64,000 nt of DNA, from assembly GCA_017447265.1 (NCBI GenBank), contig JAFSOA010000005.1:1-64000 (forward strand), given 5' to 3'. Source of the stretch: Bacteroidales bacterium. GTDB lineage: Bacteria; Bacteroidota; Bacteroidia; Bacteroidales; UBA932. The notes below the pieces were generated by a model. That model did no database searches and was not told the DNA's origin. It saw only the letters and a program-made list of their open reading frames with translations. Position numbers and translations under genes: made by a program. Below are positions 5,113 to 48,431 of the stretch, piece after piece; position 1 is the stretch's first letter, and the number at the start of each line of letters is the position of its first letter.

Positions 5113-5117
5113 TGGAT

Positions 5118-5147
5118 GCAAAAATAAAGATTATTGACTATATTTGC
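5118..5147. promoter_or_regulatory. Divergent promoter region, sppA / metal operon
   Basis: On the plus strand TATATTTG (5139-5146) is a good -7 box 36 bases before the sppA ATG. On the minus strand TATTTTTGC (complement of 5118-5126) lies close before the ATG at 5112 and would give a very short leader. Confidence 0.55.
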
Positions 5148-5182
5148 AAAATACAACTCGTCAAATCATAATTAATTAGGAT

Positions 5183-6958: not shown

Positions 6959-8250
6959 TGCAGAAAATGAAACAGATGCATGGCTTCTGGCTGGCGCTTG
7001 CCGTCGTGCTCCTGGCCCTGCCGGTGCCGGCCCAGACGCGCCATGCCTCCGCCAACCAGGGCAAGGTCTGGTATGTGAGCCAGGGCAGCGGTTCCAACCG
7101 GAACGACGGTACGCGTGAGAATCCGCTCAAGAACATCCAGAAAGCCATCGACATGGCCGCCTCCGGCGACGTGATCTGCGTGGCGGAAGGCAATTATTAC
7201 GGGCTGCTCAACTGCGGCTACATCAAGGTCAACAAAGGCGTCTCCATCATCGGCGGTTATTCGGCCGACTTCTCGGAACGCGACTTCCTGCAATACAGGA
7301 CGCTCATCCAGCCGACCGCTACCTCGAACGGCACGCTCCAGGGGCAGGGCACCGTCCAGATCCATGTGCTGCAGAGCGGCACGCTCGTCGAACTGGACGG
7401 CCTGATCATGGACCGCGGCAACTCGGTGGCGTATGACCGGAATGGCGAAGGAAAGCCCGCCGGGGTCGAAACGGGAATGATGTGCCCGATCGGCTCGGCC
7501 GGCAAAGGTGCGCCGGGTGTCCCCGAAGACCAGTTCCATACCGCCGAGACGGCGATCGTGCACATCAATACGGGCTCCCGCTGCGATGTGACCATCCGCA
7601 ACTGCGCGTTTCTCAACGGTCCGTATTATGGCCTGACCGGGTCCACCTTCGGCACGAAGGTGACCGTGGACAACTGCATTTTCGTGAACATCCGCATGGC
7701 GGCCGTAGAGTTGCGCGGCGCTTCCGCGACGAACAACAGCCAGACGGTCTTCACCCACAATACCGTGCTCTTCAGCTGGTCGCGTCTCCGTGACCTGCAT
7801 GACATGGGCTACGGCTACCGCTACATGCCTCGCAACGACACGAAGTTCGACCGCAACATCGTCGGCTGCAGCGTTTTTGCTGCGCTCGACCGGACGCATG
7901 TGGACAATCCGCCCGCTAGGGAGGAAGAGCGTGTGACCACCTGCGAACATTCGCTGTTCTTCCTCAACCGCCAGGCCGATCTCGTCCTGCCCGGCGGCGG
8001 CACGTTCCTGCGGGTCCGCGTCGATGACTTCGAAGATGTGGAACAGCTGGCTGAAGTGTCTGACAATGAGGATGTCGACGACCCGGAAAAGCTGTTCGGC
8101 GACGCCATTGACAAAGCCTATCTCAAAGGGTTCCGGCAGGTGACCGCCGACAAGCCGGAAGGGAAGATGTTCGCCAACCACTATCCCGTGGAAGAAGCGC
8201 TGAAACTCTTCGGCGCCGTGGAAAAATACGGTGCACAGAAGCCGGAATAA
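6958..8250 (+). CDS. Secreted right-handed beta-helix protein
   Basis: This 430-residue protein has a signal peptide ending near VPAQT. After it comes KVWYVSQGSGSNRNDGTRENPLKNIQKAIDMAASGDVICVAEGNY, the opening of parallel beta-helix (pectate-lyase-like, DUF1565-type) proteins. Repeated rungs follow, with xVxIxNCxF-like strings (VTIRNCAFLN, VTVDNCIFVN). No catalytic lyase or hydrolase residues can be assigned from sequence alone. I chose ATG 6958, overlapping the sppA stop; ATGs at 6967 and 6976 are alternatives. It ends 6 bases before the GH9 gene, which suggests a joint role in carbohydrate or surface processing. Confidence 0.75.
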   Translation: MQKMKQMHGFWLALAVVLLALPVPAQTRHASANQGKVWYVSQGSGSNRNDGTRENPLKNIQKAIDMAASGDVICVAEGNYYGLLNCGYIKVNKGVSIIGGYSADFSERDFLQYRTLIQPTATSNGTLQGQGTVQIHVLQSGTLVELDGLIMDRGNSVAYDRNGEGKPAGVETGMMCPIGSAGKGAPGVPEDQFHTAETAIVHINTGSRCDVTIRNCAFLNGPYYGLTGSTFGTKVTVDNCIFVNIRMAAVELRGASATNNSQTVFTHNTVLFSWSRLRDLHDMGYGYRYMPRNDTKFDRNIVGCSVFAALDRTHVDNPPAREEERVTTCEHSLFFLNRQADLVLPGGGTFLRVRVDDFEDVEQLAEVSDNEDVDDPEKLFGDAIDKAYLKGFRQVTADKPEGKMFANHYPVEEALKLFGAVEKYGAQKPE

Positions 8251-8256
8251 GAGCGT

Positions 8257-32397: not shown

Positions 32398-32852
32398 TGG
32401 AGAAGCAGGTCAGAAAAACATTCCTGCCGCAGGATATTGCCGTCCTTACGGCAGTCTTTGCGGCAGGAGCCGCCTGCTTCCTTCTGGGTGAAGGATGGGG
32501 CGGTCTGGGCGTCGTCATTATTATGAGCGGAGCCATGATGCTGCCATTTTATCATCATGGTTATCGGCTGGAGGGTCAGAAAGGCCTGTTCCGGCTGAAG
32601 GAACTGTCGATGTCGAGGGAGAACAAGGACGAGATTCTTGCCTTCCTTGATGGAACGACAGAGGACATCGACCTGCATCCCTGGGCAAAAGGCGGGGCTC
32701 TGGTCGACGTGTACTGGAGAAAGAGCGATGGCTTTATGATGGCACGCTATTTCGATTATGCTGATTTCTCGAACGGGATTGAATACCCCCTTCGGGAGGT
32801 GTCCGGGCAACAGGTAGCCCGTCTGGAATCATTTGCTTCGGATAAACAATGA
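32397..32852 (+). CDS. Small two-helix membrane protein, paralogue B
   Basis: 151 residues, a diverged tandem copy of the preceding gene: two helices (VLTAVFAAGAACFLLGEGWGGLGVVIIMSGAMML), then a soluble domain with EILAFLDGTTEDI, KGGALVDVYW, ARYFDYADFSNG and EVSGQQVARLESF. The start overlaps the previous stop (TGATG) and its stop overlaps the antiporter start by four bases (32849-32852). This tight coupling suggests a role with the K+/H+ antiporter. Confidence 0.7.
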   Translation: MEKQVRKTFLPQDIAVLTAVFAAGAACFLLGEGWGGLGVVIIMSGAMMLPFYHHGYRLEGQKGLFRLKELSMSRENKDEILAFLDGTTEDIDLHPWAKGGALVDVYWRKSDGFMMARYFDYADFSNGIEYPLREVSGQQVARLESFASDKQ

Positions 32853-34444
32853 CAACACTTTTCCTCATCCTCATCGTAGTCGTAATCCTGACCTGTATCC
32901 TGTTGAACAATATCTCCGTCCGGATCGGAGTGCCGACCTTGTTGGCATTCATCGTGCTGGGTATTGTGTTCGGCAATGTAGGCGCCATTCCTGTATATCT
33001 GGACAATCACTACTTTGCCAAGGACGTGTGCAGCGTTGCGCTGTTGTTCATCATGTTTTATGGCGGCTTCGGCACGCGCTGGGAGGCGGTGAAGCCGGTG
33101 GTGCGGGAGTCTGTGCTGCTGGCATCGTTGGGCGTGGTGGTGACGGCCGGTCTGACCGGCTTGTTCTGCCATTTTGCCCTGCGGTGGGGATGGGCGGAAA
33201 GTTTTCTTCTGGGGGCCGTGGTCAGTTCTACGGACGCGGCCTCCGTCTTTTCCATTCTGAGGGGGAAGAAGCTGGGCCTTAAGAACAATACCGCGCCGAT
33301 GCTGGAAATGGAAAGCGGGAGCAACGACCCTGCCGCGTATATGCTCACGGCCATCATGATTTCCGTCGTGAACGGGACCGCATCGGGGTGGGGGTTGGCC
33401 TGGATGGTGTTTGCCCAGATTGTGTTCGGCGCAGGTTTTGGCTGGGCCATTGCCAAGGGAGCATCCTGGGCGCTGCAGCGGATGCATTTCTCGACGGACG
33501 GTTTTGACACGCTCTTCATCTTTGCCGTTGCCATTGCCGCCTACGCCGTACCGGACCTTCTTGGCGGCAACGGATACCTGAGCGCCTATATCGTGGGCAT
33601 TATGCTGGGGAACGAGGAGTTCAAGGGAAAACGGTCGCTGGTGGGATTCTTCGACGGAGTAACAGGCCTGATGCAGGTTCTGATCTTCTTCATTTTAGGC
33701 CTGCTGGCCCGGCCTGCGATGATGCACGAGGCCATCCTGCCTGCGCTGGCTATATCAGCCTTCCTGCTGCTGGTGGCCCGTCCGGCGACTGTGTTCGGCA
33801 TCTTGTCGCCTTTCAGGAAATATGCTGCCCGGCAGCAGTGGCTGGTATCATTTGTCGGCCTTAGGGGAGCGGCGTCCATTGTATTTGCCATCATGGCTTT
33901 CACGGGCACAGGGAACCTGAACAATGATCTTTTCAGCATCGTGTTCTGCATTGTGCTTATTTCTATTTCCCTCCAAGGTTCGCTGATTCCCCGGGTGGCC
34001 CGGAAGCTGGACATGCTGGACACCGGGGACAATGTGATGAAAACTTTCAACGATTATTCCGAAGGAACGGAGATGCAGTTCGGCCGCATCGACATCGGTC
34101 CCGGGAGCAAGTGGAACGGAAAGAAGGTGATGGATCTGGGATTGCCGGGGAATATGCTGATAGCTTTGGTGATTCGCGGGAAGGAGCGCATTACAGCGAG
34201 AGGGGACACCGTACTTCAGGCAGGCGACCGGGTCATTCTGGTAACGAAGACTTATGAGGATACCGAGACCTTCCTGCTGGAGAAGACTGTCAAGAAAGGC
34301 GGGAAACGGGACGGGAAGGCCATCAGTGAATCAAATTCCGACGGACTGGTCCTGCTGATTCAACGGGGTGAAGAGGAAATCATTCCTCACGGTGATACGG
34401 TACTCCTGGCGGGGGATGTGCTGGTGATACTCAAAAGCCGGTAG
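32849..34444 (+). CDS. Potassium/proton antiporter, CPA1 type with TrkA-C domain
   Basis: 531 residues. An antiporter core of about 12-13 helices (1-395) contains the conserved SSTDAASVFSIL and ESGSNDPAAY motifs (the ion-binding Asp pair) and LGGNGYLSAYIVG. The cytosolic C-terminal part (about 405-531) has a TrkA-C/RCK-C-like domain (RIDIGPGSKWNGKKVMDLGLP ... DTVLQAGDRVILVTK) and a second degenerate half (EEEIIPHGDTVLLAGDVLVILK). The likely role is K+ efflux or pH control. A hairpin terminator follows at 34467-34485. Confidence 0.9.
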   Translation: MTTLFLILIVVVILTCILLNNISVRIGVPTLLAFIVLGIVFGNVGAIPVYLDNHYFAKDVCSVALLFIMFYGGFGTRWEAVKPVVRESVLLASLGVVVTAGLTGLFCHFALRWGWAESFLLGAVVSSTDAASVFSILRGKKLGLKNNTAPMLEMESGSNDPAAYMLTAIMISVVNGTASGWGLAWMVFAQIVFGAGFGWAIAKGASWALQRMHFSTDGFDTLFIFAVAIAAYAVPDLLGGNGYLSAYIVGIMLGNEEFKGKRSLVGFFDGVTGLMQVLIFFILGLLARPAMMHEAILPALAISAFLLLVARPATVFGILSPFRKYAARQQWLVSFVGLRGAASIVFAIMAFTGTGNLNNDLFSIVFCIVLISISLQGSLIPRVARKLDMLDTGDNVMKTFNDYSEGTEMQFGRIDIGPGSKWNGKKVMDLGLPGNMLIALVIRGKERITARGDTVLQAGDRVILVTKTYEDTETFLLEKTVKKGGKRDGKAISESNSDGLVLLIQRGEEEIIPHGDTVLLAGDVLVILKSR

Positions 34445-36302: not shown

Positions 36303-36310
36303 TATATTTG
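36303..36310 (+). promoter_or_regulatory. -7 box of the signalling/NRPS operon
   Basis: TATATTTG, 52 bases before ATG 36362, in a very A/T-rich gap. The leader downstream holds the two direct repeats at 36325-36362. Confidence 0.5.
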
Positions 36311-36324
36311 TATTTGGAAATATA

Positions 36325-36362
36325 TTTTTCATTGTAACAAATATAGTTTTTCATTGTAACAA
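36325..36362 (+). promoter_or_regulatory. 16-bp direct repeat at the operon start
   Basis: TTTTTCATTGTAACAA occurs at 36325-36340 and again at 36347-36362, a period of 22 bases; the last base is the A of the ATG. Position and spacing (two helix turns) suggest a regulator-binding site or translational control. Confidence 0.5.
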
Positions 36363-37525
36363 TGGCCGTTAAAATTCTTAGCGTCGACGACGAAACCGAT
36401 CTTGAACTGTTGTTGACGCAATTCTTCCGCAGACAAATCAGAAAAGGCGAATATGAGTTTTTCTTTGCTCACAATGGGCTGGAGGCACTGCAGATCCTGT
36501 TGAAACACCCGGATATCGCCATCATCCTTTCCGATATCAATATGCCCGAAATGGACGGATTGACGCTGTTGGCCAAGGTCAACGAAATGCGCATCCCGTC
36601 CCTGAAGTGCATCATGGTCAGTGCGTATGGCGACATGGATAACATACGCCATGCCATGAACGGCGGCGCCTTCGATTTCGCCACGAAGCCGATAGACCTT
36701 GAGGACCTGCAACTTACCATCGAAAAGGCGGTGGAGCAGATCGAATATATCAAAAGTGCCCAGAAAGAGCATGCCCAGCTGGTGGATATCCGGAGCGACC
36801 TGTCGGTGGCCCGGGAGATCCAGCAGGGCATCCTGCCCCGTTCGTTCACCTTGAATCTTGCCGACGCCGGGCGTGTCGATATCTTCGCCAGCATGGTGGC
36901 GGCCAAGGATGTGGGCGGAGATTTCTATGATCTGTTCCGGATCGATGACCATCGTTTCGGATTTGCCATCGCCGACGTAAGCGGCAAAGGCGTGCCTGCC
37001 GCCATCTTCATGGCGGTCAGCCATACGCTCATCAAGGCGACGGGACAGCGTGACCTGAGTTCGTGCGAGTGCATGAAAACGGTCAACGACATCCTGTGCG
37101 ACGAAAGCGTGGGATCGATGTTCGTGACCGTTTTCTATGGCATTTATGACCTGACGACCGGTTCCATCGATTTTACCAATGCCGGTCATAATCCGCCGTA
37201 TATCCTCCATGCCGACGGAACGGTCGAGCAGCTGAAAACTGCCTGTAACCTCGTGCTGGGTGCCATGGAAGACATCCCTTACACCAGCGGTGAGCTTCAG
37301 TTGAATCCCGGTGACACCCTCGTGATGTACACGGACGGTGTGACGGAGGCGGAGGACAAGGATCACGCCCAGTTCGGGGAAGACAGGCTTGAAGCGGATC
37401 TGGCTGGACTGAAGGGAGCCGACAGCCGGCAGATTGTCGACACAATCAACGCCAAGGTGCGGGAATTTGTGGCCGGCGCTCCCCAGAGTGATGATATTAC
37501 TCAGTTAGTCATTCGTAGAAAGTGA
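36362..37525 (+). CDS. Response regulator with SpoIIE/PP2C phosphatase output
   Basis: 387 residues. Receiver domain (1-125): VDDETD acidic pocket, phospho-acceptor Asp58 in LSDINMPEMDG, MVSAYGD (Ser) and TKPIDLEDL (Lys). A short helical linker (VDIRSDLSVAREIQQGILP) leads to a PP2C/RsbU-type phosphatase (about 165-387) with metal Asp residues in AAKDVGGDFYDLF, ADVSGKGVPAAIF, NAGHNPPYIL and YTDGVTEAED. Such proteins dephosphorylate anti-anti-sigma factors in partner switching; no RsbV/RsbW homologue is seen in the window. It is the first gene of the six-gene operon, and its stop overlaps the next start (GTGA). Confidence 0.93.
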   Translation: MAVKILSVDDETDLELLLTQFFRRQIRKGEYEFFFAHNGLEALQILLKHPDIAIILSDINMPEMDGLTLLAKVNEMRIPSLKCIMVSAYGDMDNIRHAMNGGAFDFATKPIDLEDLQLTIEKAVEQIEYIKSAQKEHAQLVDIRSDLSVAREIQQGILPRSFTLNLADAGRVDIFASMVAAKDVGGDFYDLFRIDDHRFGFAIADVSGKGVPAAIFMAVSHTLIKATGQRDLSSCECMKTVNDILCDESVGSMFVTVFYGIYDLTTGSIDFTNAGHNPPYILHADGTVEQLKTACNLVLGAMEDIPYTSGELQLNPGDTLVMYTDGVTEAEDKDHAQFGEDRLEADLAGLKGADSRQIVDTINAKVREFVAGAPQSDDITQLVIRRK

Positions 37526-39180
37526 ATCGCCGTACAACCATAATCGTGGCCCTGTCGGCATTGGTAGTCCTTGCCGCTGTGGCTCTTGTCGCCTATCAAA
37601 TGGGCCACAGGCAGTCCCGGAGTGAGCTTGCCGTGCTGCAGGAAGAGATGGACCGCCTGCTCGATGCCGAGAAAGATGCTGCCATCGTGAAGCGTGTCAG
37701 CCAGCAGATGGAAGACATTGCCTATCAGCAGAAAGCCATCTCTGACCAGCAGCGCGACCGTGCCGAGGAACAATCCATCCTGGCGACCAGGAGTGCCGAG
37801 CGCGCCGAGATCGAGCGTCTCGCCGCACGGGATGCCGAGCGGAAAGCGAATGCCGCGGCAGAAGTGGCCCAGCGGGAACGCGCCAATGCCGAACGGCAGC
37901 AGGAGATAGCCAGCGAGCAAAGGGATGAGGCAACCCATGCCAAGAATGTCGCGGATACCTTGAACCGGCGCACCCAGGCCAGAAGCATGGCGGTGAGCTC
38001 GCAGGTGAGGCGTGAGGCCAATGAGCCCGATGTGGCCGACGCCCTGGCCTACGCCAGCTGGTATTTCCTCAAGAACAACCGCGGTAACCAGTATTATGCA
38101 GAAACCTTCAAGTCCCTGGCCCTGGCTACGGGCGGAATCCCGCGCTATAAAGTCAAGGAGAACGGCGCCGTCAATGCCATCGCGTCCGTGCCCGGCAGTC
38201 CCAGGCAGTGTGTGGTCGTCACCAATTACGGGGAGGTGGAATGGCTTCGCGCCACGATGAACGACGTGGACAAACAGATAGTCTCGCAGCCTTTGTTGTT
38301 CAATCCTGCGTATGATTTCCGGGATGTCCGGGTTATCGGCGGGAGCATCTATGCCCTGTCCCTGAAGGGACCGTTGTGTATCCTGGACTTCGCGGGAAAG
38401 ATGAAGACCGTCGACCTGCCGGAGGGCGATTATTTCAAGCTTGTCCCACTGGAAGACCGCCTGCTCGTGGCGGGGCGCAAAAGCCTGTGCTGGTATGCGA
38501 ACGGGCTGGTCTCGGGCGGTGTGACGCTGGACAAGCCTCTGTCGACCCTCGTTGAGCGGGACGGGACCCTCTGCCTCTTCTATGCCGATGGCTACTATGC
38601 TGAAATGAATGCGTCGGGGCAGCTGGAAGAGAAGAAACCGCTGGTGCCCTACGTGGTCACCGCCGCGTATTATGACCGGGCCAGCGGATGCCTGCTCCTC
38701 GGCGTGGAGGACGGCACGGTCTATCCCGTCAACCGGTACAACCGCGTCATGGAGACCCTGGCCGCACACAAGTCGAGGTGCATGAGCATCACCATGCACG
38801 ATCCTGTCGTAGTGACCGGCGGCTACGACAAGAAAGTCTACATCTGGAATATGGATAATCTGTTGTATGACAGCGGATTGTCATTCCGCGAGGAGTTGAG
38901 GACAAAAAGTGTCGGCAAGCGCGTCGCGAACAGCCAGGAGATTCCGACCGAGTGGCTGGTTCCCGTGGATTATGCCTTCGACGGATGGACCCTTGCCGTG
39001 TGTGCGGATGAAGACGGTAAATCCGTGTGGATAGGAACCTCCGCCGGAAATGTCTTCCTGCTGAATTCATCGGCCGACGACATGGCGCAGCAGCTGCACA
39101 AAAATCTCAACCGTAATCTGACCCAACAGGAATGGATACGCTATGTAGGCGTCTCCATCCCATATATGACGTTCAAATGA
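37522..39180 (+). CDS. Membrane-anchored coiled-coil / WD40-like repeat protein
   Basis: 552 residues, GTG start overlapping the previous stop by four bases. One membrane helix (IIVALSALVVLAAVALVAYQ, 7-26) is followed by a long charged coiled coil (30-150, many QQ/AER/EEQ heptads) and a helical linker (RRTQARSMAVSSQVRREANEPDVADALAYASWYFLKNN) like that ahead of WD40 domains in signalling NTPases. Beta-propeller blades fill about 190-500, the best being VVTGGYDKKVYIWNMD; it ends with ...TQQEWIRYVGVSIPYMTFK. No enzyme domain is seen. Probably a scaffold or sensor linking the phosphatase regulator to the kinases. Confidence 0.85.
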   Translation: MNRRTTIIVALSALVVLAAVALVAYQMGHRQSRSELAVLQEEMDRLLDAEKDAAIVKRVSQQMEDIAYQQKAISDQQRDRAEEQSILATRSAERAEIERLAARDAERKANAAAEVAQRERANAERQQEIASEQRDEATHAKNVADTLNRRTQARSMAVSSQVRREANEPDVADALAYASWYFLKNNRGNQYYAETFKSLALATGGIPRYKVKENGAVNAIASVPGSPRQCVVVTNYGEVEWLRATMNDVDKQIVSQPLLFNPAYDFRDVRVIGGSIYALSLKGPLCILDFAGKMKTVDLPEGDYFKLVPLEDRLLVAGRKSLCWYANGLVSGGVTLDKPLSTLVERDGTLCLFYADGYYAEMNASGQLEEKKPLVPYVVTAAYYDRASGCLLLGVEDGTVYPVNRYNRVMETLAAHKSRCMSITMHDPVVVTGGYDKKVYIWNMDNLLYDSGLSFREELRTKSVGKRVANSQEIPTEWLVPVDYAFDGWTLAVCADEDGKSVWIGTSAGNVFLLNSSADDMAQQLHKNLNRNLTQQEWIRYVGVSIPYMTFK

Positions 39181-41759
39181 GAAGGTTTCCGTATCATATC
39201 AGTTTGACGGTTGCCGTGTTGCTTCTCACGGTGCAGACGTTCGCGCAGAACGGCGCTGACGCCTATATGGGCATTCCGTTTTTCCGGAATTACCCGGCCG
39301 GCCAGTACGATGCCCACAACCGTAACTTCGACGTTCTGTGTGACGGCGAGGGACATACCTTCTTTGCCAATTTCGAAGGCCTTCTCGTCTATGACAATGT
39401 CGAGTGGCGGATTGTCCATACCCCCGACATCTCCCGCGTGGTGAGGCTGGACCGGAATGAGGACGGTGCCGTCATCTTCGAGGGAATCAAATATACGGGA
39501 CGGGTTCTGTCCGTTGACGGAGATTCCATCCGTGTTTCCTTTACCGAAGGAGACCTGCGCAACGCCCGGGCGATTGTCGGCGGCGAAGGACGTAACAGAG
39601 CCGTCGTGGACAGATGGAACGATATCGAGGTCTATCAGCGTCTCGAACTGAGTGACGATCGCACCCTGCTGGCCACGGCGACCGAAGGTGTGATCGCGGT
39701 CGATGCCCAGGGGCGCGAGGTCTGGCGGATCAATGTGGACAACGGACTCTGCTCCAACAGTATCACGAAGCTGGCTTATGACGGCAAGGGAACGGTGTGG
39801 GGCGCCACCGACAACGGCGTTTTCAACATCTCTGTTTCCGAAATCTATACCCACTTCACCGAGAAGGAAGGCCTGCGTGGACAGATTTCCTGCATCGCCA
39901 TGTCCGGTCCCACCCTGATGGTGGGAACATTCCAGGGCCTGTACCGGCTGGAGGGGCAGCGCTTTGTCCCGGTCGACAAGATCAATCACGCCTGCTGGCA
40001 GATTGCCCAGGGACCCGCTGGAAGTCTTTACATTGCGACCTCAGACGGCGTGTACCAGTATGCCAATCAATCCGCCAGGCAGCTGTCCACCCAGTTCGCC
40101 CTTTCCATCGCCGCCCTGGAAGACGGCTCCTACCTGGTCGGTGAGCTGGCACGTGTCTGCCGTTTCCGCCCCGGTGAAAGCCTCAGGAGCGTAGATGACA
40201 TTCCCACGATCACCAGTTTCAAGAATGATGAAAACGGGGGCGTGTGGGCCCTGACGCTGGCCGGCGACTACTACTACATGGCGGCGGACGGCAAAGCCTT
40301 CGAAAAGAGGGAGGAAGGTCCGATCTCCAAGTTGTTCGAATATCGCGACAATGCCGTCAACCTGTGGCGGAGCCGTGAAAACGGATCCGGCCTCTACTAT
40401 GACAACATGCCCGATGACCTGAAACCCTGGATCGAACCGTTTGCGGACTACGTCGTCATGGCCATGCTGATCGACAAGGGGCTGGTCTGGATCGGCGACA
40501 ATGACGAACTGATCCGTTTCAATCTGGACCAGTGCCGTACGGCTGAGCGTTTCGAGCCGCAGTTGTATGTCCACCGTTTCCGCGAGAACGGCAGCGACCT
40601 CTCCATCAGTTTTGCCAACGACAAGATGGACCCCATCGGACAGACGCTATACAGCTACCGCCTGCATCAGGATGACACGTGGTCTTCCTGGAGCGGGCAG
40701 CAGGAATACCTGTTCGCCAACCTCGGTTTCGGATCCTATCAGGTTTCGGTCCGTTCAAAAGACGCCTTCGGCCAGATCAGTGAGTGCGGTCCGTTCGAAT
40801 TCAAGCGGCCTTATCCGGTGTTCATGCGCTGGTATGCAATCCTCGTCTACGTGTTGCTCATCGTCTATCTTGTCTATCAGTTGTTTAAATACCGTATGCG
40901 CCGCATGGCCGAGGAGCAGCAGCGCCTTGAGGCCATCGTGGACGAGCGGACCCGGGAACTGCGCACGGCGCAGGACAAACTGCTGAGACAGGAACGGGAG
41001 GCCGCCATCGGCAAACTGACCAAAGGCTTGATCGACCGTATTCTCAATCCGATGAACTACATCAATAACTTCGCCCACCTGACCCTGGGCCTGTCGAAGG
41101 AGATGCAACAGAACATGGAGGATGAGAAAGACAACATTACGCCCGATGTCTTTGAGGATTCCATGGATGTCCTGGACATGATGAAGACCAACCTTGAGAA
41201 GATCGAGCAGCACGGCATCTCTACGACACGAACCCTGAAAGCGATGGAGGAACTGCTGAAAGAGCGTTCCCAGAAGTTTGAATCCACCGACCTGGCTGCC
41301 TTGTGCCAGCAGTGCGTGGATAAATTCAAGAACTATTATGCCGATGACATCGCCAGGCTGGGCATCGAGGTGGAATGCATCCGTCCCGAGGAACCCGTCA
41401 TGCGTGACGTCGTAGCCGACCAGATCAGCAAGTCCATCATGTCGATGCTTTCCAACAGCCTGTATGCCATCCGGAAGAAGGCCGAGAAGGGAGGGGAGTA
41501 CCATCCGCTCGTCCGCGTATCTGTCTCGCAGGAGCCGGAAGGAGGCCATCTTCTCATCAAGGTTTACGACAACGGTATCGGTATTGAACAAAGCATTATC
41601 AACAAGGTTTTCGATCCATTCTTCACGACCAAGCCGACGGCCGAAGCTCCTGGCGTGGGCCTCTATCTCAGCCAGCAGGTACTGCATGACTGCGGCGGAA
41701 CGATCACGGTTGATTCCGTGAAGGATGAATTTACGGTATTCGTCATTAATTTGGCTTAA
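39177..41759 (+). CDS. Propeller-type sensor kinase lacking the phosphoacceptor His
   Basis: 860 residues. Signal peptide (1-23, ending TFAQ), periplasmic two-component propeller repeats (about 40-450), a Y_Y_Y domain (about 460-545), one membrane helix (YAILVYVLLIVYLVYQLF, about 548-570), a coiled coil, then the kinase core. The H-box region reads AAIGKLTKGLIDRILNPMNYINNF: Asp620-Arg replaces the His-Glu seen in the next gene's [12 protein letters not shown]. The ATPase part is present (MLSNSLYAIRKK N-box, VYDNGIGI, DPFFTTKP, GVGLYLSQQVL). It may phosphorylate a partner in trans or act as a sensor subunit. Start overlaps the previous stop (ATGA). Confidence 0.9.
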   Translation: MRRFPYHISLTVAVLLLTVQTFAQNGADAYMGIPFFRNYPAGQYDAHNRNFDVLCDGEGHTFFANFEGLLVYDNVEWRIVHTPDISRVVRLDRNEDGAVIFEGIKYTGRVLSVDGDSIRVSFTEGDLRNARAIVGGEGRNRAVVDRWNDIEVYQRLELSDDRTLLATATEGVIAVDAQGREVWRINVDNGLCSNSITKLAYDGKGTVWGATDNGVFNISVSEIYTHFTEKEGLRGQISCIAMSGPTLMVGTFQGLYRLEGQRFVPVDKINHACWQIAQGPAGSLYIATSDGVYQYANQSARQLSTQFALSIAALEDGSYLVGELARVCRFRPGESLRSVDDIPTITSFKNDENGGVWALTLAGDYYYMAADGKAFEKREEGPISKLFEYRDNAVNLWRSRENGSGLYYDNMPDDLKPWIEPFADYVVMAMLIDKGLVWIGDNDELIRFNLDQCRTAERFEPQLYVHRFRENGSDLSISFANDKMDPIGQTLYSYRLHQDDTWSSWSGQQEYLFANLGFGSYQVSVRSKDAFGQISECGPFEFKRPYPVFMRWYAILVYVLLIVYLVYQLFKYRMRRMAEEQQRLEAIVDERTRELRTAQDKLLRQEREAAIGKLTKGLIDRILNPMNYINNFAHLTLGLSKEMQQNMEDEKDNITPDVFEDSMDVLDMMKTNLEKIEQHGISTTRTLKAMEELLKERSQKFESTDLAALCQQCVDKFKNYYADDIARLGIEVECIRPEEPVMRDVVADQISKSIMSMLSNSLYAIRKKAEKGGEYHPLVRVSVSQEPEGGHLLIKVYDNGIGIEQSIINKVFDPFFTTKPTAEAPGVGLYLSQQVLHDCGGTITVDSVKDEFTVFVINLA

Positions 41760-41771
41760 GACAACTGTCCT

Positions 41772-42635
41772 ATGGATGCGGAATTAGAAAGCTTGAAACA
41801 ACAGGTGGAATACTTGCAGCAGCAGCTGCAAAAGCAGGAAAAGATGGCCTCCCTGGGGTTGCTCAGCGCCGGCATCGCTCACGAAATCCAGAATCCGCTG
41901 AATTTTGTGATCAATTTCAGCAAGATGTCGTGCAAGTTGCTGGAAGACCTGCAGGACCTGGTGGAAGACTGCGCCGAAAAGCTGGGGGAGGAGGATGCCG
42001 CTGACATGAAAGATATATCGGCGGACCTCCAGGAGAATCTCGCCAAGATTCAGGAGCATGGAGAGCGCGCCATCAGCATCATCCGCGGAATCCTGTTGCA
42101 AAGCCGTGGCAAGGCCGGCGAAAAACTGCCGGTCGACATCGGACAGCTGGTGCATGAGTATGTGTGGCTCAGCTACCATGCCATGCGGGCCAACGACAAG
42201 AGCTTCAATATCACCATCCGCGAGGAGATCCAGGAAGATATGCCCAAAGTCATGGTCATCCCGCAGGATCTGAGCCGGGCCGTGCTCAACGTCATGAACA
42301 ACGCCTGTTATACCGTCAAGGAGCGGGCTGGCATGGAGGGTGAGGGCTATACGCCCACCATCGAGGTAAAGGTCTCCCTGAGCCGCGGCGGCGCGGATGA
42401 TGCAGAACTTCGCATAGACATTGCCGACAACGGCATGGGCATGACGCCCGAGATCAAGGAAAAGATCTTTGAGAATTTCTTTACCACCAAACCCGCCGGA
42501 CAGGGCACCGGCCTGGGAATGGGCATCACCTATGATGTCATTACCAAGAACCACAACGGCAAGCTGCTCCTGGAGACCGAGCCGAAGGTGGGCACCACGT
42601 TCACGTTTATTCTTCCCGTAAAGATTGTAAAATGA
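41772..42635 (+). CDS. Soluble sensor histidine kinase
   Basis: 287 residues with no signal peptide, membrane helix or sensor domain. A short N-terminal coiled coil ([18 protein letters not shown]) leads into a HisKA domain with His37 ([24 protein letters not shown]) and a complete HATPase domain: [13 protein letters not shown] (N-box), [29 protein letters not shown]. It lies 12 bases after the His-less kinase and is closely related to its core, so the two may form a heterodimer in which the membrane partner senses and this one carries the phosphoryl group to the receiver at 36362. Stop overlaps the next start. Confidence 0.92.
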
Positions 42636-44992
42636 GCATCAAGAGATATCTGCTTGCACTCTTCCTTCTTTGCTTGCCATGGGCGGCCGCGCATGCGCAG
42701 GACAATGTGCGGCTGTATGAGTCGGCACAGGAAGCGTACGAGCTGGGTTTGTTTGAGAAAGCCGACACCCTCCTCACGAACTCGGTGAACCGTTTCCGCG
42801 GAGAGGACCGGATCGGTGTGTACAGGCTGCTTGCGCTGTGCAACCTGAATATGGACAAGCCCGAAGTGGCGGAGGCCTGGGTCTCCAGGCTGCTGGCCGT
42901 CGACCCGTATTACAGCGTGTACAATGATGTGCCGCGCTTTACCGAACTGGTCAACCGGCTCAAAGCCGGCAAGACAGCCACAATTACCACCGCTTCCCAA
43001 CAGGCCGAGTCCATTGAAGAAGCGCCGGTCCCTGTGACGCTGATTACGGAAGACATGCTGCAGCGCATCGGTGCCAGGACCCTGAAGGATGCCCTGATAG
43101 CGTATGTGCCCGGTATGACGGACATTGCCTGCAATGAGGAAATGAATGTGGCTATGCGCGGCATCTATTCGTCAGGGCAGGAGAAGATCCTCATCATGTT
43201 GGACGGGCACCGCCTGAACAGTTATTCCACCAATACGGCCAGCCCCGATTTCTCCATCAGCCTCGACAAGGTCAAACAGATCGAGGTGCTGCGGGGCCCG
43301 GCTTCCTCCCTGTACGGCGGCGTCGCTTTGACAGGCGTGGTCAACATCATCACCAAGGAGGGGTCGGATGTGGACGGTTTCATGGTCAAGGGAGGTGTCG
43401 GCAACTATGGACAGCTTCGCGGAGACCTGCTCTTCGGCAAACGCTATCTTGCCCTGGACGTCCTGAGCTGGGCCAGCATCTATCGGGCTGACGGCCAGAA
43501 GGTGCATTATGGCGCCAACTGGGATGAGCAGCCCTATGCGGTCATGCCCATCGAAGGTGACATGATCATCGGCGGATACAACAAGACCCCGTCCTATGAC
43601 CTCGGCTTGTCGTTGAAGTGGAATAAATTGCACATGCTTTACAACCGCCGTTTTGCCAAGACGGTGGCGCCTCTGTCGCTCAGTTATTTCTTTACGCCCT
43701 ACGAGTACGACCAGTACAGGAAACTCAACGGCTATGGCCCCGGCTATGCGATCTCTTCGCAGCATGCCGAGCTGGGATATGCGGACAGCCGCGGGAATTT
43801 TGCCTGGCAGGTTTCCGCCAATTTCGATTCCCAGGATCAGCAGCGTTACCAGGTTGACGGTGACATCCCTGAAAGCGGGACCGGCGGAAACGACTTGTAT
43901 CCCAATGGCGCTGACAGTGTCCTGATCAAGCTCTATGATAAAGTGTTCCAGAGCGTAAAATGGAGTGAATACACCTACGGCGTATCGGCACAGGGCAGTT
44001 ACAACTATTCGTTCGGCAAGTCGCAGTCCGGCGTCGTCATGGTCGGCGGACAGGCCAACCGATTCAACCTGGCTGATGCCGCCTATCTGGAAGGCATCGA
44101 CTACGATCTCATCCTGAAGACCTACAACGATGTCAAAGTCTTGAACACCGGCAAGGAGACCAGCGCCGACGCCTATGTACAGGTCAAGCATTCCTTTGGC
44201 TACGGGCTTGTCCTGAATGCCGGTCTGCGCTATGACTTCAAGTTGCGGTCGAGCGGCAAGAAGCTGCACGTGCTTTCGCCCCGTATCGCCCTCATCTACT
44301 CCCATCCCAGGTGGAGCGCCAAGCTGAGCTATTCCAAGGCCTTCGTGGACGCACCGTATTTTTATCGCAACAATACCCTGGACATCAACTTCGGCGATGA
44401 CAACCTCTTCCCCGAGTACCTGAACTCCTGGCAGCTGTCTTTCTATAGCGACGGCAAGTTGGTTCCCAGGCTGAAAATGGAGGTGAACGGATTTATCAAC
44501 AAGGCTGACAACTTCATCATCCAGAGCGAGTTGGGTAATACGAACGCCGGTAGCCTTACCAATGCCGGCGTGGAGATGGCCGCCAGCTATGCCATCTCCC
44601 GGTTCAGGGTCGACGGAAACTTTACCTGGCAGCGGGTGCTGGCTTCCCAGAACTTCAGTATCTTTGACCACAGTATCTATAACATCCCGGATTTCCAGGC
44701 CAACCTGGCGGCTTCCTATGAGATCGTCCGTGGTCTGAAGGTCAATGCACATGCCAATTTCCTTTCGAAGCAGAAATCGCTCTATGCCCTGCCTTTCGCG
44801 CCCGAGGTGGTCATCGACATCCCTTCCCGCGTCATCGTCGACCTGGGTGCCAGCTACGCCATCTGGAAAGTGGAGTTCGGGTTGAATGTATATAACATTG
44901 CCAACACGCCCTATCTGCAGGGAGGTTCCAGTGTCGCACCGATGCGGCAGGCGGGCCGATGGCTGTTGGGACATGTGAGTTTCAAATTTTAA
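42632..44992 (+). CDS. TonB-dependent receptor with TPR-like N-terminal domain
   Basis: 786 residues. Signal peptide (1-22, AHAQ). A helical region of about 90 residues (LYESAQEAYELGLFEKADTLLTNSVNRF ... VYRLLALCNLNMDKPEVAEAWVSRLLAVDP) looks like TPR units and stands where a CarboxypepD_reg domain is usual. The plug follows (APVPVTLITEDMLQRIGARTLKDAL, VAMRGIYSSGQEKILIMLDGHRL, IEVLRGPASSLYGGVALTGVVNIITK), then a barrel ending LLGHVSFKF. There is no SusD partner. It sits between the kinase pair and the NRPS-like gene, so it may import, or sense and signal for, the product of that enzyme. Confidence 0.92.
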   Translation: MSIKRYLLALFLLCLPWAAAHAQDNVRLYESAQEAYELGLFEKADTLLTNSVNRFRGEDRIGVYRLLALCNLNMDKPEVAEAWVSRLLAVDPYYSVYNDVPRFTELVNRLKAGKTATITTASQQAESIEEAPVPVTLITEDMLQRIGARTLKDALIAYVPGMTDIACNEEMNVAMRGIYSSGQEKILIMLDGHRLNSYSTNTASPDFSISLDKVKQIEVLRGPASSLYGGVALTGVVNIITKEGSDVDGFMVKGGVGNYGQLRGDLLFGKRYLALDVLSWASIYRADGQKVHYGANWDEQPYAVMPIEGDMIIGGYNKTPSYDLGLSLKWNKLHMLYNRRFAKTVAPLSLSYFFTPYEYDQYRKLNGYGPGYAISSQHAELGYADSRGNFAWQVSANFDSQDQQRYQVDGDIPESGTGGNDLYPNGADSVLIKLYDKVFQSVKWSEYTYGVSAQGSYNYSFGKSQSGVVMVGGQANRFNLADAAYLEGIDYDLILKTYNDVKVLNTGKETSADAYVQVKHSFGYGLVLNAGLRYDFKLRSSGKKLHVLSPRIALIYSHPRWSAKLSYSKAFVDAPYFYRNNTLDINFGDDNLFPEYLNSWQLSFYSDGKLVPRLKMEVNGFINKADNFIIQSELGNTNAGSLTNAGVEMAASYAISRFRVDGNFTWQRVLASQNFSIFDHSIYNIPDFQANLAASYEIVRGLKVNAHANFLSKQKSLYALPFAPEVVIDIPSRVIVDLGASYAIWKVEFGLNVYNIANTPYLQGGSSVAPMRQAGRWLLGHVSFKF

Positions 44993-45005
44993 TCAGTAAC
45001 GCAGA

Positions 45006-47444
45006 ATGGACTTGTATTGGGAGAAACTTGCCGGACAACTGACGGCAATCATTGAAGAAAAAAAGGACAAGGTTGCCTATGTCATGGGTGACAAAGAAGT
45101 CACATACGCCCAGATGGATGAAATGGCCTGCCATATCGCATCGGGAGTGGCCCGGATAGTGGAAGGCAAGGATGCCGATCCCGCGGTTCCCGTCCGTATC
45201 GGCATCTGCCTGGGAAGACACGAGCATGTCGTGCCGTGCATCCTGGCAGCTGTCAAGCTGGGTTGTTCCTATGTCCCCATTGATGTGGAGACGCCCCGTG
45301 AGCGCCGGGATTTTATCTGCAAAGACGCCGGTTTGAGCGTACTGATCACCGCCGAGAATTTCAACAGCCTGGCAGCAAGCCCGCTCGTGGATCCCCTGCC
45401 GGTGCTGAGCCGTGGCGTTTCCGAGGCCTATATGATCTATACCTCGGGTACGACCGGCCAGCCCAAGGGCGTTTCGCAGCCCTACCGGACGCTGTACAGT
45501 TATATGCAGACGGTCTGCCTGCCGGACAATTTCAACATCAGCGACAAATCCGTCATCCTCCATTTCGCCAGCATCAGTTTCGACGTGTCTGTCCTGGAGA
45601 TTTTTGCCGCGCTCTTTTATGGCGGCACACTGGTTATCGCGCAGCAGGAGGATAAGCATAATCCCCTGCTGGTCTATAAGCTGATGAAGGAGAAAGGGAT
45701 CACCTACACCTTCATGCCACCGTCTCTCCTGGCGGTCTTCCCCGATTATGATTTCCCCGCCATGGACACGCTGTCCGCCGGCGGCGAAGCCATTCCGCAC
45801 AGCCTGACCAGCAAGATTGCCGGAAAATATCCCTATCGTTTCGTGAACGGATACGGACCGACGGAAAGCATCGTGACCACCACGCATGAGATAGAAGGAC
45901 CGGATGACTGGCGGAACATCGGCAAGCCGGTTCCGGGCGTCGTATGCTATGTGGCCGACGAAAACGGGAAGCTCGTCGCTCCGGGCGAGCAGGGCGAACT
46001 GTTGATCGGGGGCATGCAGCTGACCAACGGCTATTGGAACCGTCCAGAACTCAATGCCCGGATGTTCTTTGCCAACCCGTATGAAAAAGAACACGACGGG
46101 ATCGATGTGTCCCGGCTCTATCACAGCGGCGACCTGGTGACGCTCAATGAGGACGGCAGCTTCAACTATATCGGCCGGAGGGATTCCCAGATCAAGCTCC
46201 ACGGCTACCGTATCGAGTTGGGCGAAATCTGTACGCTGATCGAACAGCAGGAAGGTGTGCTGAGAGCCTTTGTCCGTCTGGAAGAGATTGGAAACGAGAA
46301 ATACATCGTGGCGTATGTACGGACCGCCGAAGGCGTCGACAACCTGAACGAGATCCGGCAGAAAGTATCCAAACTGCTGCCTGCATACATGTTGCCGACC
46401 TTCTGGAACCAGGTCGAAGACTTCAAGCTGAACATCAACGGCAAGATTGACCAGTCCACGCTCGTCAACAAGGCAGTGGACCCGGTCACCACCAACGATA
46501 CGCCCGTCACGCCCCAGGAGGAACTGCTGATGCAGGCAACCGCCAAGCTGCTCGGCCTGCCGAGCGTCAATGTTAATGCGGACCTGTTCAATGATGTCGG
46601 CATTACCTCCCTGCATATCCTGCAACTGATCGTCCAAATGGGTATGTCTGGCATTCATTTGAATGTGAATGACTTCTATTCGTTGCGTACCATCCGCAAG
46701 ATCATGGCTGCCGAGAAACATCCCAATGCCTTCTGGTATGGCGACTCGGGCGACGACCCCACAAAGCCGGTCCTGATCGTCATCAGCGGCATGACCAGTT
46801 TCTCGTTCATCTTCGGGGAATGGGCCGAACGGGTTTCCAAGAAATTCGCCATCTTCGCCATTGAATCTTATCATGCTGTCATGGAAGACAGGCTGACCGA
46901 CCTGGACTCGCTGGTAGATATCTATCTGGAGTATGTCAAGGATGTGGTCAATACCCGCCATATCGCGGCCATCGTCGGCTTCTGCGTGGGAGGCGAGCAG
47001 GGCCTTGTGATGGCCAGGAAACTTTACAACGATTCCGATTACAAACCCCGCGTCGTGGTGCTCGACGGAGAACTGGACCGGGACATGAGCCTGCAGCGGC
47101 TTACGATCAATTCCTATTTCTTCCCCTTCTTCAGCGATGAGCGCAACAGGCGCCGTGCCGAGCTGGATATCTATCTGATGGAAACCATGCCGGTAGAAAC
47201 CTACAACGGCCCGGTTTCGGCCCTCATCGCCGAGTCCTATACGGGCCTCAGCCCGGTTTCCGGAACGGAGAAAGAACCCGAAGTGATCCGGCGCGAACTG
47301 GCGGAGCACAATACCAGTGAAAGCCGTTGGAAATACCGCTACCCCGACTGCGAGGTGATTTATATTCCCGGAAACCACAATCAGTACCTGGTTACCAAAG
47401 AAAGCCTGGATCCCATCGTAGAGTACTGTCTCAACAATCTCTGA
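45006..47444 (+). CDS. Single-module NRPS-like enzyme (A-T-TE)
   Basis: 812 residues. Adenylation domain (1-490): YTSGTTGQPKG, SFDVSVLEIF with the Asp that usually binds an amino group, GYGPTES, YHSGDLV, GRRDSQIKLHGYRIELGEI and the Lys in NINGKID. Carrier domain (505-580) with Ser535 in DVGITSLHIL as the phosphopantetheine site. Thioesterase (590-812): GFCVGGEQ puts Cys660 where GxSxG normally has Ser, with VVLDGELD (Asp) and PGNHNQYLV (His). No condensation domain, so it should activate one substrate and release, hydrolyse or self-condense it. It lies 13 bases after the TonB receptor and ends the operon. No phosphopantetheinyl transferase is visible here. Confidence 0.9.
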   Translation: MDLYWEKLAGQLTAIIEEKKDKVAYVMGDKEVTYAQMDEMACHIASGVARIVEGKDADPAVPVRIGICLGRHEHVVPCILAAVKLGCSYVPIDVETPRERRDFICKDAGLSVLITAENFNSLAASPLVDPLPVLSRGVSEAYMIYTSGTTGQPKGVSQPYRTLYSYMQTVCLPDNFNISDKSVILHFASISFDVSVLEIFAALFYGGTLVIAQQEDKHNPLLVYKLMKEKGITYTFMPPSLLAVFPDYDFPAMDTLSAGGEAIPHSLTSKIAGKYPYRFVNGYGPTESIVTTTHEIEGPDDWRNIGKPVPGVVCYVADENGKLVAPGEQGELLIGGMQLTNGYWNRPELNARMFFANPYEKEHDGIDVSRLYHSGDLVTLNEDGSFNYIGRRDSQIKLHGYRIELGEICTLIEQQEGVLRAFVRLEEIGNEKYIVAYVRTAEGVDNLNEIRQKVSKLLPAYMLPTFWNQVEDFKLNINGKIDQSTLVNKAVDPVTTNDTPVTPQEELLMQATAKLLGLPSVNVNADLFNDVGITSLHILQLIVQMGMSGIHLNVNDFYSLRTIRKIMAAEKHPNAFWYGDSGDDPTKPVLIVISGMTSFSFIFGEWAERVSKKFAIFAIESYHAVMEDRLTDLDSLVDIYLEYVKDVVNTRHIAAIVGFCVGGEQGLVMARKLYNDSDYKPRVVVLDGELDRDMSLQRLTINSYFFPFFSDERNRRRAELDIYLMETMPVETYNGPVSALIAESYTGLSPVSGTEKEPEVIRRELAEHNTSESRWKYRYPDCEVIYIPGNHNQYLVTKESLDPIVEYCLNNL

Positions 47445-47473
47445 TTGGCTTTCCGACGTTGATATTTTGCTTT

Positions 47474-47510
47474 TTCGCGGATGAATTTCCGCGAAGATGC
47501 ACTATATTTG
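47474..47510 (+). promoter_or_regulatory. Hairpin and -7 box ahead of the HhH gene
   Basis: TTCGCGGA (47474-47481) pairs with TCCGCGAA (47488-47495); it may end the NRPS operon or be an operator. A -7 box TATATTTG (47503-47510) follows, 21 bases before ATG 47532. Confidence 0.5.
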
Positions 47511-47531
47511 GCATCGTTAACCGAAGGAGCT

Positions 47532-48431
47532 ATGAAGGAGGGGAAGAAGCAGTCGAAGGGCGTGGCGTCAGGCATGGTGGCGTTGGTATTTCTGGTCCTG
47601 GGATTTCAACTGGCCGTTTTCGTCATAAAAGTTGTCGAACGGCCGGAAAGACGGGTCGAGCCCGGCAAGACCGCCACCACAGACGCTGCTGTTACAACAG
47701 TTATTACTGATACTACGGTAGCGAGCGAAGCCGCGGGTGGTGTTCGTCGAAGCGACCTTTTTTCGGGAGCGAGACGAACACCAGAGCGGCGAAGCGAGCG
47801 GAACGTTCAACCCGGGCGGCGCAGCGAACGAAGCTATGAGTCGTTTCCCTTCGACCCCAATACCGTCAGCCTGGCCGACCTCCAGCGCCTGGGCCTGACC
47901 CTCCGCCAGGCAGAAACCATCGACCACTACCGCAGCAAAGGCGGCCGCTTCCGCACCAAAGACGACTTCCGGAAAATGTACGTCGTCACCGACAGCCTCT
48001 TCGCCCGGCTCGAACCCTTCATCAAGATCCCCAAGGTCGAACTCAACGCCGCCGACAGCGCCGCCCTCGTCTCCCTCCGTGGCATAGGCCCGTATTACGC
48101 GCGCAAGATCCTCGACTACCGCGAAAGACTCGGCGGATTCCTCCATAAAGCCCAGCTGCTCGAAATCGAAGGCCTCGACGAAGAACGCCTCGCCGGCTTC
48201 GTCGACGACGTGGAGATCGACACCACCCGCTGCAGCCGCCTCGACCTCTGGCACACCACCGACAGCATCCTGGCCCGGCATCCCTACCTGGGCGAAAAAG
48301 GCGCCCGCAGCATCACCCGCTACAAGAAACTCTACGACACCACCCGCTGGACCCTCGCCGATCTCGAAAAAGAACATGCCCTGCCGAAAGAAAATATTGA
48401 AAAATTGAAAAAATATATCGAAATTCAATAA
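47532..48431 (+). CDS. ComEA-like helix-hairpin-helix protein
   Basis: 299 residues: an N-terminal membrane anchor (GMVALVFLVLGFQLAVFVIKVV), a low-complexity region (about 35-115) and then helix-hairpin-helix units: FDPNTVSLADLQRLGLTLRQAETIDHYRSKGGRF, VELNAADSAALVSLRGIGPYYARKILDYRERLGGF and ARHPYLGEKGARSITRYKKL. These bind DNA non-specifically; ComEA-like proteins act in DNA uptake, but many Bacteroidetes copies have no proven role. The Arg/Ser-rich linker (GVRRSDLFSGARRTPERRSERNVQPGRRSERS) is encoded by palindromic repeat-like DNA (47739-47782 and onward). Confidence 0.85.
   Translation: MKEGKKQSKGVASGMVALVFLVLGFQLAVFVIKVVERPERRVEPGKTATTDAAVTTVITDTTVASEAAGGVRRSDLFSGARRTPERRSERNVQPGRRSERSYESFPFDPNTVSLADLQRLGLTLRQAETIDHYRSKGGRFRTKDDFRKMYVVTDSLFARLEPFIKIPKVELNAADSAALVSLRGIGPYYARKILDYRERLGGFLHKAQLLEIEGLDEERLAGFVDDVEIDTTRCSRLDLWHTTDSILARHPYLGEKGARSITRYKKLYDTTRWTLADLEKEHALPKENIEKLKKYIEIQ
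47739..47782. repeat. Inverted repeat inside the HhH gene
   Basis: GGTGTTCGTC (47739-47748) and GACGAACACC (47773-47782) form a perfect 10-bp stem over a 24-base loop. Further GCGAGCGGAAC / GCAGCGAACGAAGC strings follow up to about 47835. It looks like a REP-type element that kept the frame open. Confidence 0.6.

Follow-up and report, generated by a model that had tools for sequence, protein, structure and literature searches.

A two-block signalling locus of Bacteroidales in which the plug and barrel of a TonB-dependent receptor are exchanged together with a small peptide synthetase

Pyoverdine receptors group according to the type of product, whatever the species, and a receptor is retained by some non-producers (PMC11366639). 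The regions of FpvA that discriminate between groups lie near the plug (PMC11444679). Both FecA and FpvA relay their signal via an N-terminal signalling domain situated between signal peptide and plug, as described in PMC9249621. Signals are also made by the small pvf/ham/mgo clusters, which contain a non-ribosomal peptide synthetase (NRPS) and whose products, e.g., valdiazen, control gene expression (PMC5878181 and PMC10194917). In Ralstonia, the genes for ralfuranone production are reported to require quorum sensing. Here, we describe a six-gene operon of a Bacteroidales bacterium, contained in a stretch of 64,000 nucleotides (the window; assembly GCA_017447265.1, contig JAFSOA010000005.1, positions 1 to 64,000). 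It joins a response-regulator phosphatase, a WD40 protein, two proteins with kinase cores, a TonB-dependent receptor and a small NRPS. Within the receptor gene lies the border between the two evolutionary blocks of the locus, namely the signalling genes with the receptor N-terminus, and the plug and barrel with the NRPS. It is probably a conserved surface-signalling relay with a swappable ligand cassette, in which a self-made ligand would be sensed via the receptor and feed a PP2C partner switch.

A reading made earlier from the DNA letters, without database searches (the sequence-only reading), had proposed an operon of six genes on one strand and located its joints. The open reading frames (ORFs) bear this out. 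All six lie on the + strand, with 4-base overlaps at 37522, 39177 and 42632, a 12-base gap before the gene at 41772-42635 and a 13-base gap before the gene at 45006-47444. The domains are supported by Pfam.

36362..37525, + strand: RR-PP2C, a response regulator (RR) with receiver and SpoIIE/RsbU-type phosphatase, 387 amino acids (aa); PF00072 and PF07228 above cut-off
37522..39180, + strand: coiled-coil and WD40-type propeller protein with N-terminal anchor, 552 aa, GTG start; weak Pfam WD40/propeller matches
39177..41759, + strand: propeller/Y_Y_Y sensor with a kinase core lacking the phosphoacceptor His, 860 aa; PF02518 (HATPase_c), PF07494 (Reg_prop), sub-threshold Y_Y_Y
41772..42635, + strand: soluble canonical histidine kinase, 287 aa; PF00512 (HisKA) and PF02518 (HATPase_c)
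42632..44992, + strand: TonB-dependent receptor, whole gene; Plug and TonB barrel (Pfam)
42632..43021, + strand: N-terminal receptor domain with weak TPR similarity, about aa 1-130; its evolution follows that of the signalling genes
43022..44992, + strand: plug and barrel of the receptor; PF07715 and PF00593; evolves with the NRPS
45006..47444, + strand: single-module NRPS with adenylation (A), thiolation (T) and thioesterase (TE) parts, the TE with a predicted Cys nucleophile, 812 aa; PF00501 (AMP-binding) and PF00550 (PP-binding)
43465..48200 (boundaries approximate), + strand: exchanged cassette, about 99% identical to genome G026 between flanks of about 90%; from mismatch positions, identity profile and synonymous divergence (dS)

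Relatives were collected by scanning contigs of Bacteroidales genomes with two conserved peptides of the WD40 protein, a query by which more distant versions of the locus are missed. This gave 59 loci (L numbers below; G numbers are genomes). Alignments hold 51 of 60 sequences (50 loci and the window), with five genes on the + strand, a receptor of more than 650 aa and a sensor of more than 700 aa. Nine loci were left out, namely seven truncated at contig ends, L093, and L090, in which no receptor match was found within 21.6 kb of sequence. A usable NRPS is present in 29 sequences, and subsets of 26 (three C-A-T-type, partly aligned), 23 or 20 were analysed. In pairwise protein distances over 26 loci, barrel and NRPS correlate at 0.97, or 0.94 as a partial correlation given the signalling genes, a value reached by 0 of 2000 permutations. 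Distances of the receptor N-terminus (aa 1-130) correlate with those of the signalling genes at 0.92 and with those of the NRPS at 0.31. Among the 23 A-T-TE loci, the correlation matrix separates RR-PP2C, WD40 protein, sensor, kinase and receptor N-terminus from plug, barrel, A domain and T-TE. The partial correlation between barrel and A domain is 0.93 here, and 0.94 in 20 loci without L057, L107 and L109.

Trees from quick searches under LG+G4, in which L107 and L109 form long branches, show the same division. The signalling trees pair L072 with L060/L067/L063, L074 with L070, L075 with L076, and L066 with L064/L061. The barrel and NRPS trees instead place L072 with L059, L074 with L075, L070 and L076 with L059/L072, and L066 with the window and L057. 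In approximately unbiased (AU) tests, the signalling genes reject the cassette clades (p 2.7e-11 to 5.6e-99), and barrel and NRPS reject the signalling clades, the weakest case being the barrel for L066/L064/L061 (p 0.043); these p values are optimistic, since the clades were picked after viewing the trees. NRPS and receptor thus co-substitute independently of phylogeny, as represented by the four signalling genes in each locus. In the tree of 51 receptors, one group of 17 comprises 16 sequences from loci without an NRPS beside the receptor, one unjudged and none with an NRPS. The signalling genes reject this group as a clade (p 3.3e-8). Furthermore, barrels reject the grouping of L078 with its signalling sisters L079/L081 (p 9.8e-8).

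Exchange of the cassette has occurred repeatedly, and two cases are recent. Between the window genome (G000; 2.1 Mb, 19 contigs, 78.66% complete) and G026, the four signalling genes show a dS of 0.36-0.45, whereas it is 0.02-0.03 for receptor aa 301-786 and 0.024 for the NRPS. The near-identical tract of about 4.7 kb begins at about 43,465, close to the border of plug and barrel (receptor codon ~278), and ends at about 48,200, within the next, ComEA-like gene. Strong conservation is disfavoured as the cause of the 99% tract because dS falls, not dN alone. In the pair G023 and G001, dS is 0.36-0.49 in the signalling genes and then high to saturated in barrel and NRPS. While the signalling genes of G001 are 89-94% identical to those of G023, its receptor is nearest to L059 (84%) and L072 (82%), its own record L077 aside, and its NRPS is 79% identical to that of L059. 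Misassembly may produce such a pattern, but the exchanges recur across contigs of several separate genomes.

Phage or bacteriocin pressure could also diversify the barrel, with the adjoining NRPS merely dragged along by recombination. The two genes are indeed adjacent. In 24 of 30 loci, 2-72 bases separate the last sense codon of the receptor from the extrapolated NRPS start; the other six comprise two overlaps and four starts with a condensation (C) domain, in which the frame is open from the end of the receptor gene. The G000/G026 tract, moreover, runs on into the following gene. Adjacency on the other side, however, has no such effect, as the partial correlation of kinase and receptor N-terminus is 0.02-0.03. 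Control partials of adjacent pairs range from -0.01 to 0.18, except for receptor N-terminus and barrel (0.46-0.48) and for WD40 protein and sensor (0.83); the latter co-variation is suggestive only, as both proteins evolve fast. NRPS presence also follows barrel type, with two exceptions. In the inverted locus of G030 (L024/L093), the four signalling genes stand together with the receptor gene divergent beside them, and the receptor C-terminus followed by the NRPS lies on a second contig, the first 27 bases of which equal the last 27 of the contig with the receptor N-terminus. Linkage as the sole cause of the barrel-NRPS correlation is disfavoured by the adjacency controls, and we regard this explanation as very improbable.

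In the favoured reading of relay and cassette, the NRPS (A-T-TE in the window) would make a small amino-acid-derived molecule, which the plug and barrel of the receptor would recognise. The N-terminal periplasmic domain of the receptor would relay binding or uptake to the anchored WD40 protein and the His-less propeller sensor, and the latter would control the soluble histidine kinase. This kinase would set the phosphorylation of RR-PP2C, whose phosphatase would reset a partner switch of the RsbV/RsbW type. Species would change "dialect" by exchanging plug-barrel and NRPS as a unit while keeping the relay. We infer that the NRPS product is the receptor ligand, and likewise the direction in which the signal travels, the contacts in the periplasm and the role of the partner switch as the target. 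The sequence-only reading had likewise linked enzyme, receptor and relay. The exchange of barrel and NRPS as one unit, with the signalling genes and the receptor N-terminus staying behind, favours that link.

The gene order RR-PP2C, WD40 protein, His-less kinase, kinase and TonB receptor is conserved across relatives, including those in which the WD40 protein is just 27-31% identical, which argues that the arrangement is not due to chance; chance co-location of the six genes is ruled out by synteny. The genes do not scatter, as they would if the sequence-only reading were wrong on this point, and even in the rearranged G030 the divergent receptor gene remains adjacent. At genus level, the WD40 protein occurs in 5 of 40 genomes, and the locus in those five. 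The six-gene order is identical in G000, G026 and G023. In G001, a contig ends inside the receptor gene and another opens with a receptor C-terminus and then the NRPS. Among 393 genomes sampled evenly across the order, 27 matched the WD40 profile at E<=1e-10. Near-full-length matches are confined to the window and G094, and the remaining ones span 169-292 of the 552 positions, all inside the first 298. The 59 loci derive mostly from metagenome-assembled genomes (MAGs) of rumen, other ruminant stomachs and horse faeces, with a few named strains. In the genome G437, two similar bimodular NRPSs are found on contigs C52 and C64, possibly representing two copies of the locus. Pairs of a receiver-PP2C protein and a histidine kinase in other bacterial families (L026 8297-12116 and L027 3068-5523) show no WD40, receptor or NRPS matches and are perhaps the ancestral pair.

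The catalytic residues distinguish the two kinases named in the sequence-only reading. The small kinase is canonical, its H-box phosphoacceptor His being invariant in 51/51 sequences. In the large propeller sensor, the His-Glu of the H-box is replaced by Asp-Arg in 51/51, although the three ATP-binding residues examined are invariant in the same set. With Asp for His throughout, the locus encodes one canonical and one His-less kinase. RR-PP2C has the features of an RsbU-type protein, i.e., a SpoIIE/PP2C domain with metal-binding Asp residues; those examined, and the Asp, Ser and Lys of the receiver, are invariant in 51/51. Its best NCBIfam match is RR_RssB_Pseudo, with 108.6 bits against a cut-off of 700. 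The WD40 protein gives a WD40 match at E<=0.1 in 47/51 sequences, and its longest invariant stretches lie within the coiled-coil part. Its hydrophobic stretch is preceded by a short N-terminus with positive charge, from which the rest of the protein is predicted to be periplasmic.

RsbV-like STAS and RsbW-like HATPase_c_2 matches are found within the locus, on the operon strand, in 10 of 59 loci (L059, L080, L089, L102-L104, L106, L108, L109 and L112). The sequence-only reading had noted that RsbV and RsbW were missing; this is correct for the window operon, but their absence from the system is ruled out for these ten relatives. The window genome encodes them as well, clustered about 110 kb away on the same contig. 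At 156.9-160.4 kb of contig C3 (L167, about 4874-8450), an RsbW-like gene, a periplasmic-binding-like gene (by eye), a second PP2C gene and an RsbV-like STAS gene stand in a row. In G030, RsbW-like, K+/H+ antiporter-like and RsbV-like genes follow one another about 7.5 kb from the NRPS (L168, 10536-12938). Extra genes between RR-PP2C and the WD40 protein are present in seven loci. In L102 (4089-9711) they encode GlcNAc-2-epimerase-like, STAS, isoamylase-like, second STAS and RsbW-like proteins, together with a 188-aa protein that is DJ-1-like by eye; the layout is similar in L103, L104, L106, L108, L109 and L112 (families scanned in L102 only). The epimerase-like and isoamylase-like genes hint at a metabolic output, and the target of the partner switch may be glycogen or sugar metabolism. 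A frame of 2512 aa with two A-domain matches is divergent from a PP2C-STAS gene pair in the window genome (contig C15, 173.7-182.7 kb; L169, 5710-14735), possibly another link between NRPS and partner switch.

The presence of the NRPS was judged in 48 of 59 loci, i.e., those with the receptor and at least 1 kb beyond, the other 11 being not judgeable. It is the gene directly after the receptor in 30 of the 48; in the other 18, this position yielded no relative of the window NRPS. In five loci without it, the downstream gene encodes an arginyl-tRNA synthetase, a GH28 protein, an M49 peptidase, a DUF362 protein or a methyltransferase, and in L080 an RsbW-like protein follows directly; spot checks of such loci found nothing common downstream beyond sister pairs. 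Most NRPSs are of the A-T-TE form. L102 has C-A-T-TE, C-A-T is visible in L103, L104 and L108, and L068, L112 and L115 have A-T-C-A; the longest open frames in the genomes of these seven loci measure 1247-2299 aa. The window genome also encodes a phosphopantetheinyl-transferase-family protein (PF01648), which counts in favour of the proposed reading.

The C-terminal TE of the window NRPS has no Pfam match. It is assigned from its Cys-Asp-His residues and from the relatives L102 and L109, which match PF00975. Cys660, Asp687 and His791 are invariant in 23/23 A-T-TE sequences. A search that allowed Ser or Cys found the Cys motif in 24 of 29 NRPSs, and the available sequence of the other five stops before a TE. 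Cys nucleophiles are rarer than Ser in TEs, and ObiF and SulM have a relocated catalytic Asp, according to PMC11298585. Asp687 lies 27 residues after the Cys, which, judged from the sequence, fits the usual place and not the SulM/ObiF position. As this Asp looks unrelocated, a four-membered-ring product is not implied.

Asp at position 235 of the A domain marks an alpha-amino acid substrate, and the aligned residue is Asp in 25/25 A-T-TE sequences examined. The window NRPS is thus likely to activate an alpha-amino acid and not an aryl-pyruvate. Pocket letters were read by motif and alignment at the PheA positions; those of multi-module NRPSs are unreliable and were not used. The pocket reads DVMYSGGYA in L074, L075, L079 and L081, DVLFCGGIS in L059 and L072, and DVISCGAVS in L070 and L076, and in the window class it is mostly DVLFSGGVT or one or two changes away. 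Pocket residues agree inside cassette classes and differ between them, with L058 and G001 departing from their class. Substrate prediction was abandoned, as the letters fit no specificity code known to us.

Among the 51 receptors, Plug matches at E<=0.1 in 51/51 and the TonB barrel in 43/51. No STN domain is among the matches of the 51 receptors or of 10 N-terminal segments, seven of which, including that of the window, give TPR-type matches, all at or below the curated cut-off. A second TonB-receptor-like match lies downstream of the NRPS in L073 (~20152), L076 (~20177) and L107 (~20500), recalling Pseudomonas strains with several pyoverdine receptors.

TonB-dependent receptors imply energised uptake, and the best profiles of this receptor, all far below cut-off, are haem/siderophore families. 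The locus could be a private nutrient or metallophore system, in which a small chelator or nutrient-capturing compound made by the NRPS would enter through the receptor. Its uptake would then be reported by the relay, much as FpvA reports that of pyoverdine, with signalling secondary. Pyoverdine receptors cluster mainly by peptide type and not by species, and two of five non-producers retain a receptor (PMC11366639), which would fit the pattern seen here. The enzyme itself speaks against this, since the window NRPS has one module, no tailoring enzyme is found among its annotated neighbours, and a one-residue product is an unlikely siderophore. Moreover, no sigma/anti-sigma pair, extracytoplasmic function (ECF) sigma factor or FecR is encoded among the six genes of the window operon (in relatives, adjoining genes were annotated only in part). 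We regard the metallophore explanation as rather unlikely.

Several observations weigh against a self-made signal. The receptor profiles just named point to uptake families. Co-substitution of NRPS and receptor is known for the siderophore pyoverdine, too (PMC11366639), and does not by itself denote signalling. In 18 of 48 judgeable loci no NRPS adjoins the receptor (it was not searched for elsewhere in those genomes), so a self-made ligand is not obligatory. Two NRPS-less loci, L105 and L114, fall outside the 17-member receptor group. The pocket of L058 differs from that of the window despite 80% identity in the barrel and 71% in the NRPS, so that pocket and barrel class do not correspond one to one. 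RsbV and RsbW are absent from the window operon, and none were seen in the available DNA of 49 of 59 loci. The loci without an adjoining NRPS suggest that receptor and relay can work alone, and the receptor might instead sense a foreign ligand while the NRPS makes a separate effector, e.g., an inhibitor, switched on by the relay. Such a scheme gives no reason for the NRPS allele to vary with the barrel and not with the relay, and we consider it improbable.

Upstream of the operon, TATATTTG at 36303..36310 (+ strand) is a candidate for the -7 promoter element of Bacteroidetes, whose motif TAnnTTTG it matches. The direct repeat TTTTTCATTGTAACAA occurs in two copies (36325 and 36347) at 36325-36362, a region that leads up to and reaches the first start codon. 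A single copy, shorter by a base, is present in L057, and the repeat is absent from five other relatives compared. For these reasons no operator role is claimed. An antiporter is encoded at 32849-34444, about 2 kb upstream of the operon.

To our knowledge, few dedicated small-molecule communication systems have been described in gut Bacteroidales. The locus is a testable candidate, as it offers matched classes of enzyme and receptor with natural exchanges as controls, and the choice of ligand is set apart from the mode of signalling by a sharp boundary within the receptor gene. Relatives occur not just in MAGs but in named strains, including Phocaeicola intestinalis Sa1CVN1 and Parabacteroides sp. 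An277, in both of which the NRPS adjoins the receptor. The locus also lends itself to work on a conserved His-less kinase and its canonical partner. Tentatively, gut Bacteroidales may use undescribed private chemical languages of this kind, with TonB pheromone receptors for self-made NRPS products feeding a His-less sensor, a kinase and a PP2C partner switch, and cassette swaps giving rise to new dialects or to listeners without an NRPS. The sequence-only reading knew of no described system with this set of genes, and our search of open-licence papers likewise found no paper describing it.

Among known systems, the pvf/ham/mgo clusters are alike in producing a signal with a small NRPS. Their enzyme differs, being a single module that ends in a reductase, and we know of no TonB receptor or kinase relay in them. 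RalA of ralfuranone biosynthesis has the same single-module A-T-TE layout; unlike RalA, the A-T-TE sequences examined here carry the Asp aligned to Asp235 in 25/25, so that an alpha-amino acid is a more likely substrate than an aryl-pyruvate. RsbU/RsbV/RsbW and Pseudomonas RssB-type systems share the receiver and SpoIIE phosphatase, and RsbV-like and RsbW-like proteins are encoded in the loci of some relatives, but here the phosphatase is coupled to a TonB receptor and a His-less sensor. Quorum-sensing pherotype loci resemble this one in that linked synthase and receptor are exchanged together, though here the cognate pairing is presumed. FecA/FecR/FecI likewise has a TonB receptor in which an N-terminal domain precedes the plug, after the signal peptide (PMC9249621). 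It differs from the present locus, in which no STN domain was found among the receptor matches, the six genes include no ECF sigma factor or FecR, and output would run via a response-regulator phosphatase. The closest parallel is pyoverdine and FpvA of Pseudomonas, where NRPS and TonB receptor are co-encoded, receptor types are independent of phylogeny and FpvA also signals (PMC11366639 and PMC9249621). In contrast, the NRPSs here have one to two modules, a kinase/PP2C relay belongs to the same operon, no sigma/anti-sigma pair is among the six genes, and the exchange junction lies inside the receptor gene. The locus follows a pyoverdine-like evolutionary rule, but its relay differs and its enzymes are much smaller; self-signalling is the favoured candidate function.

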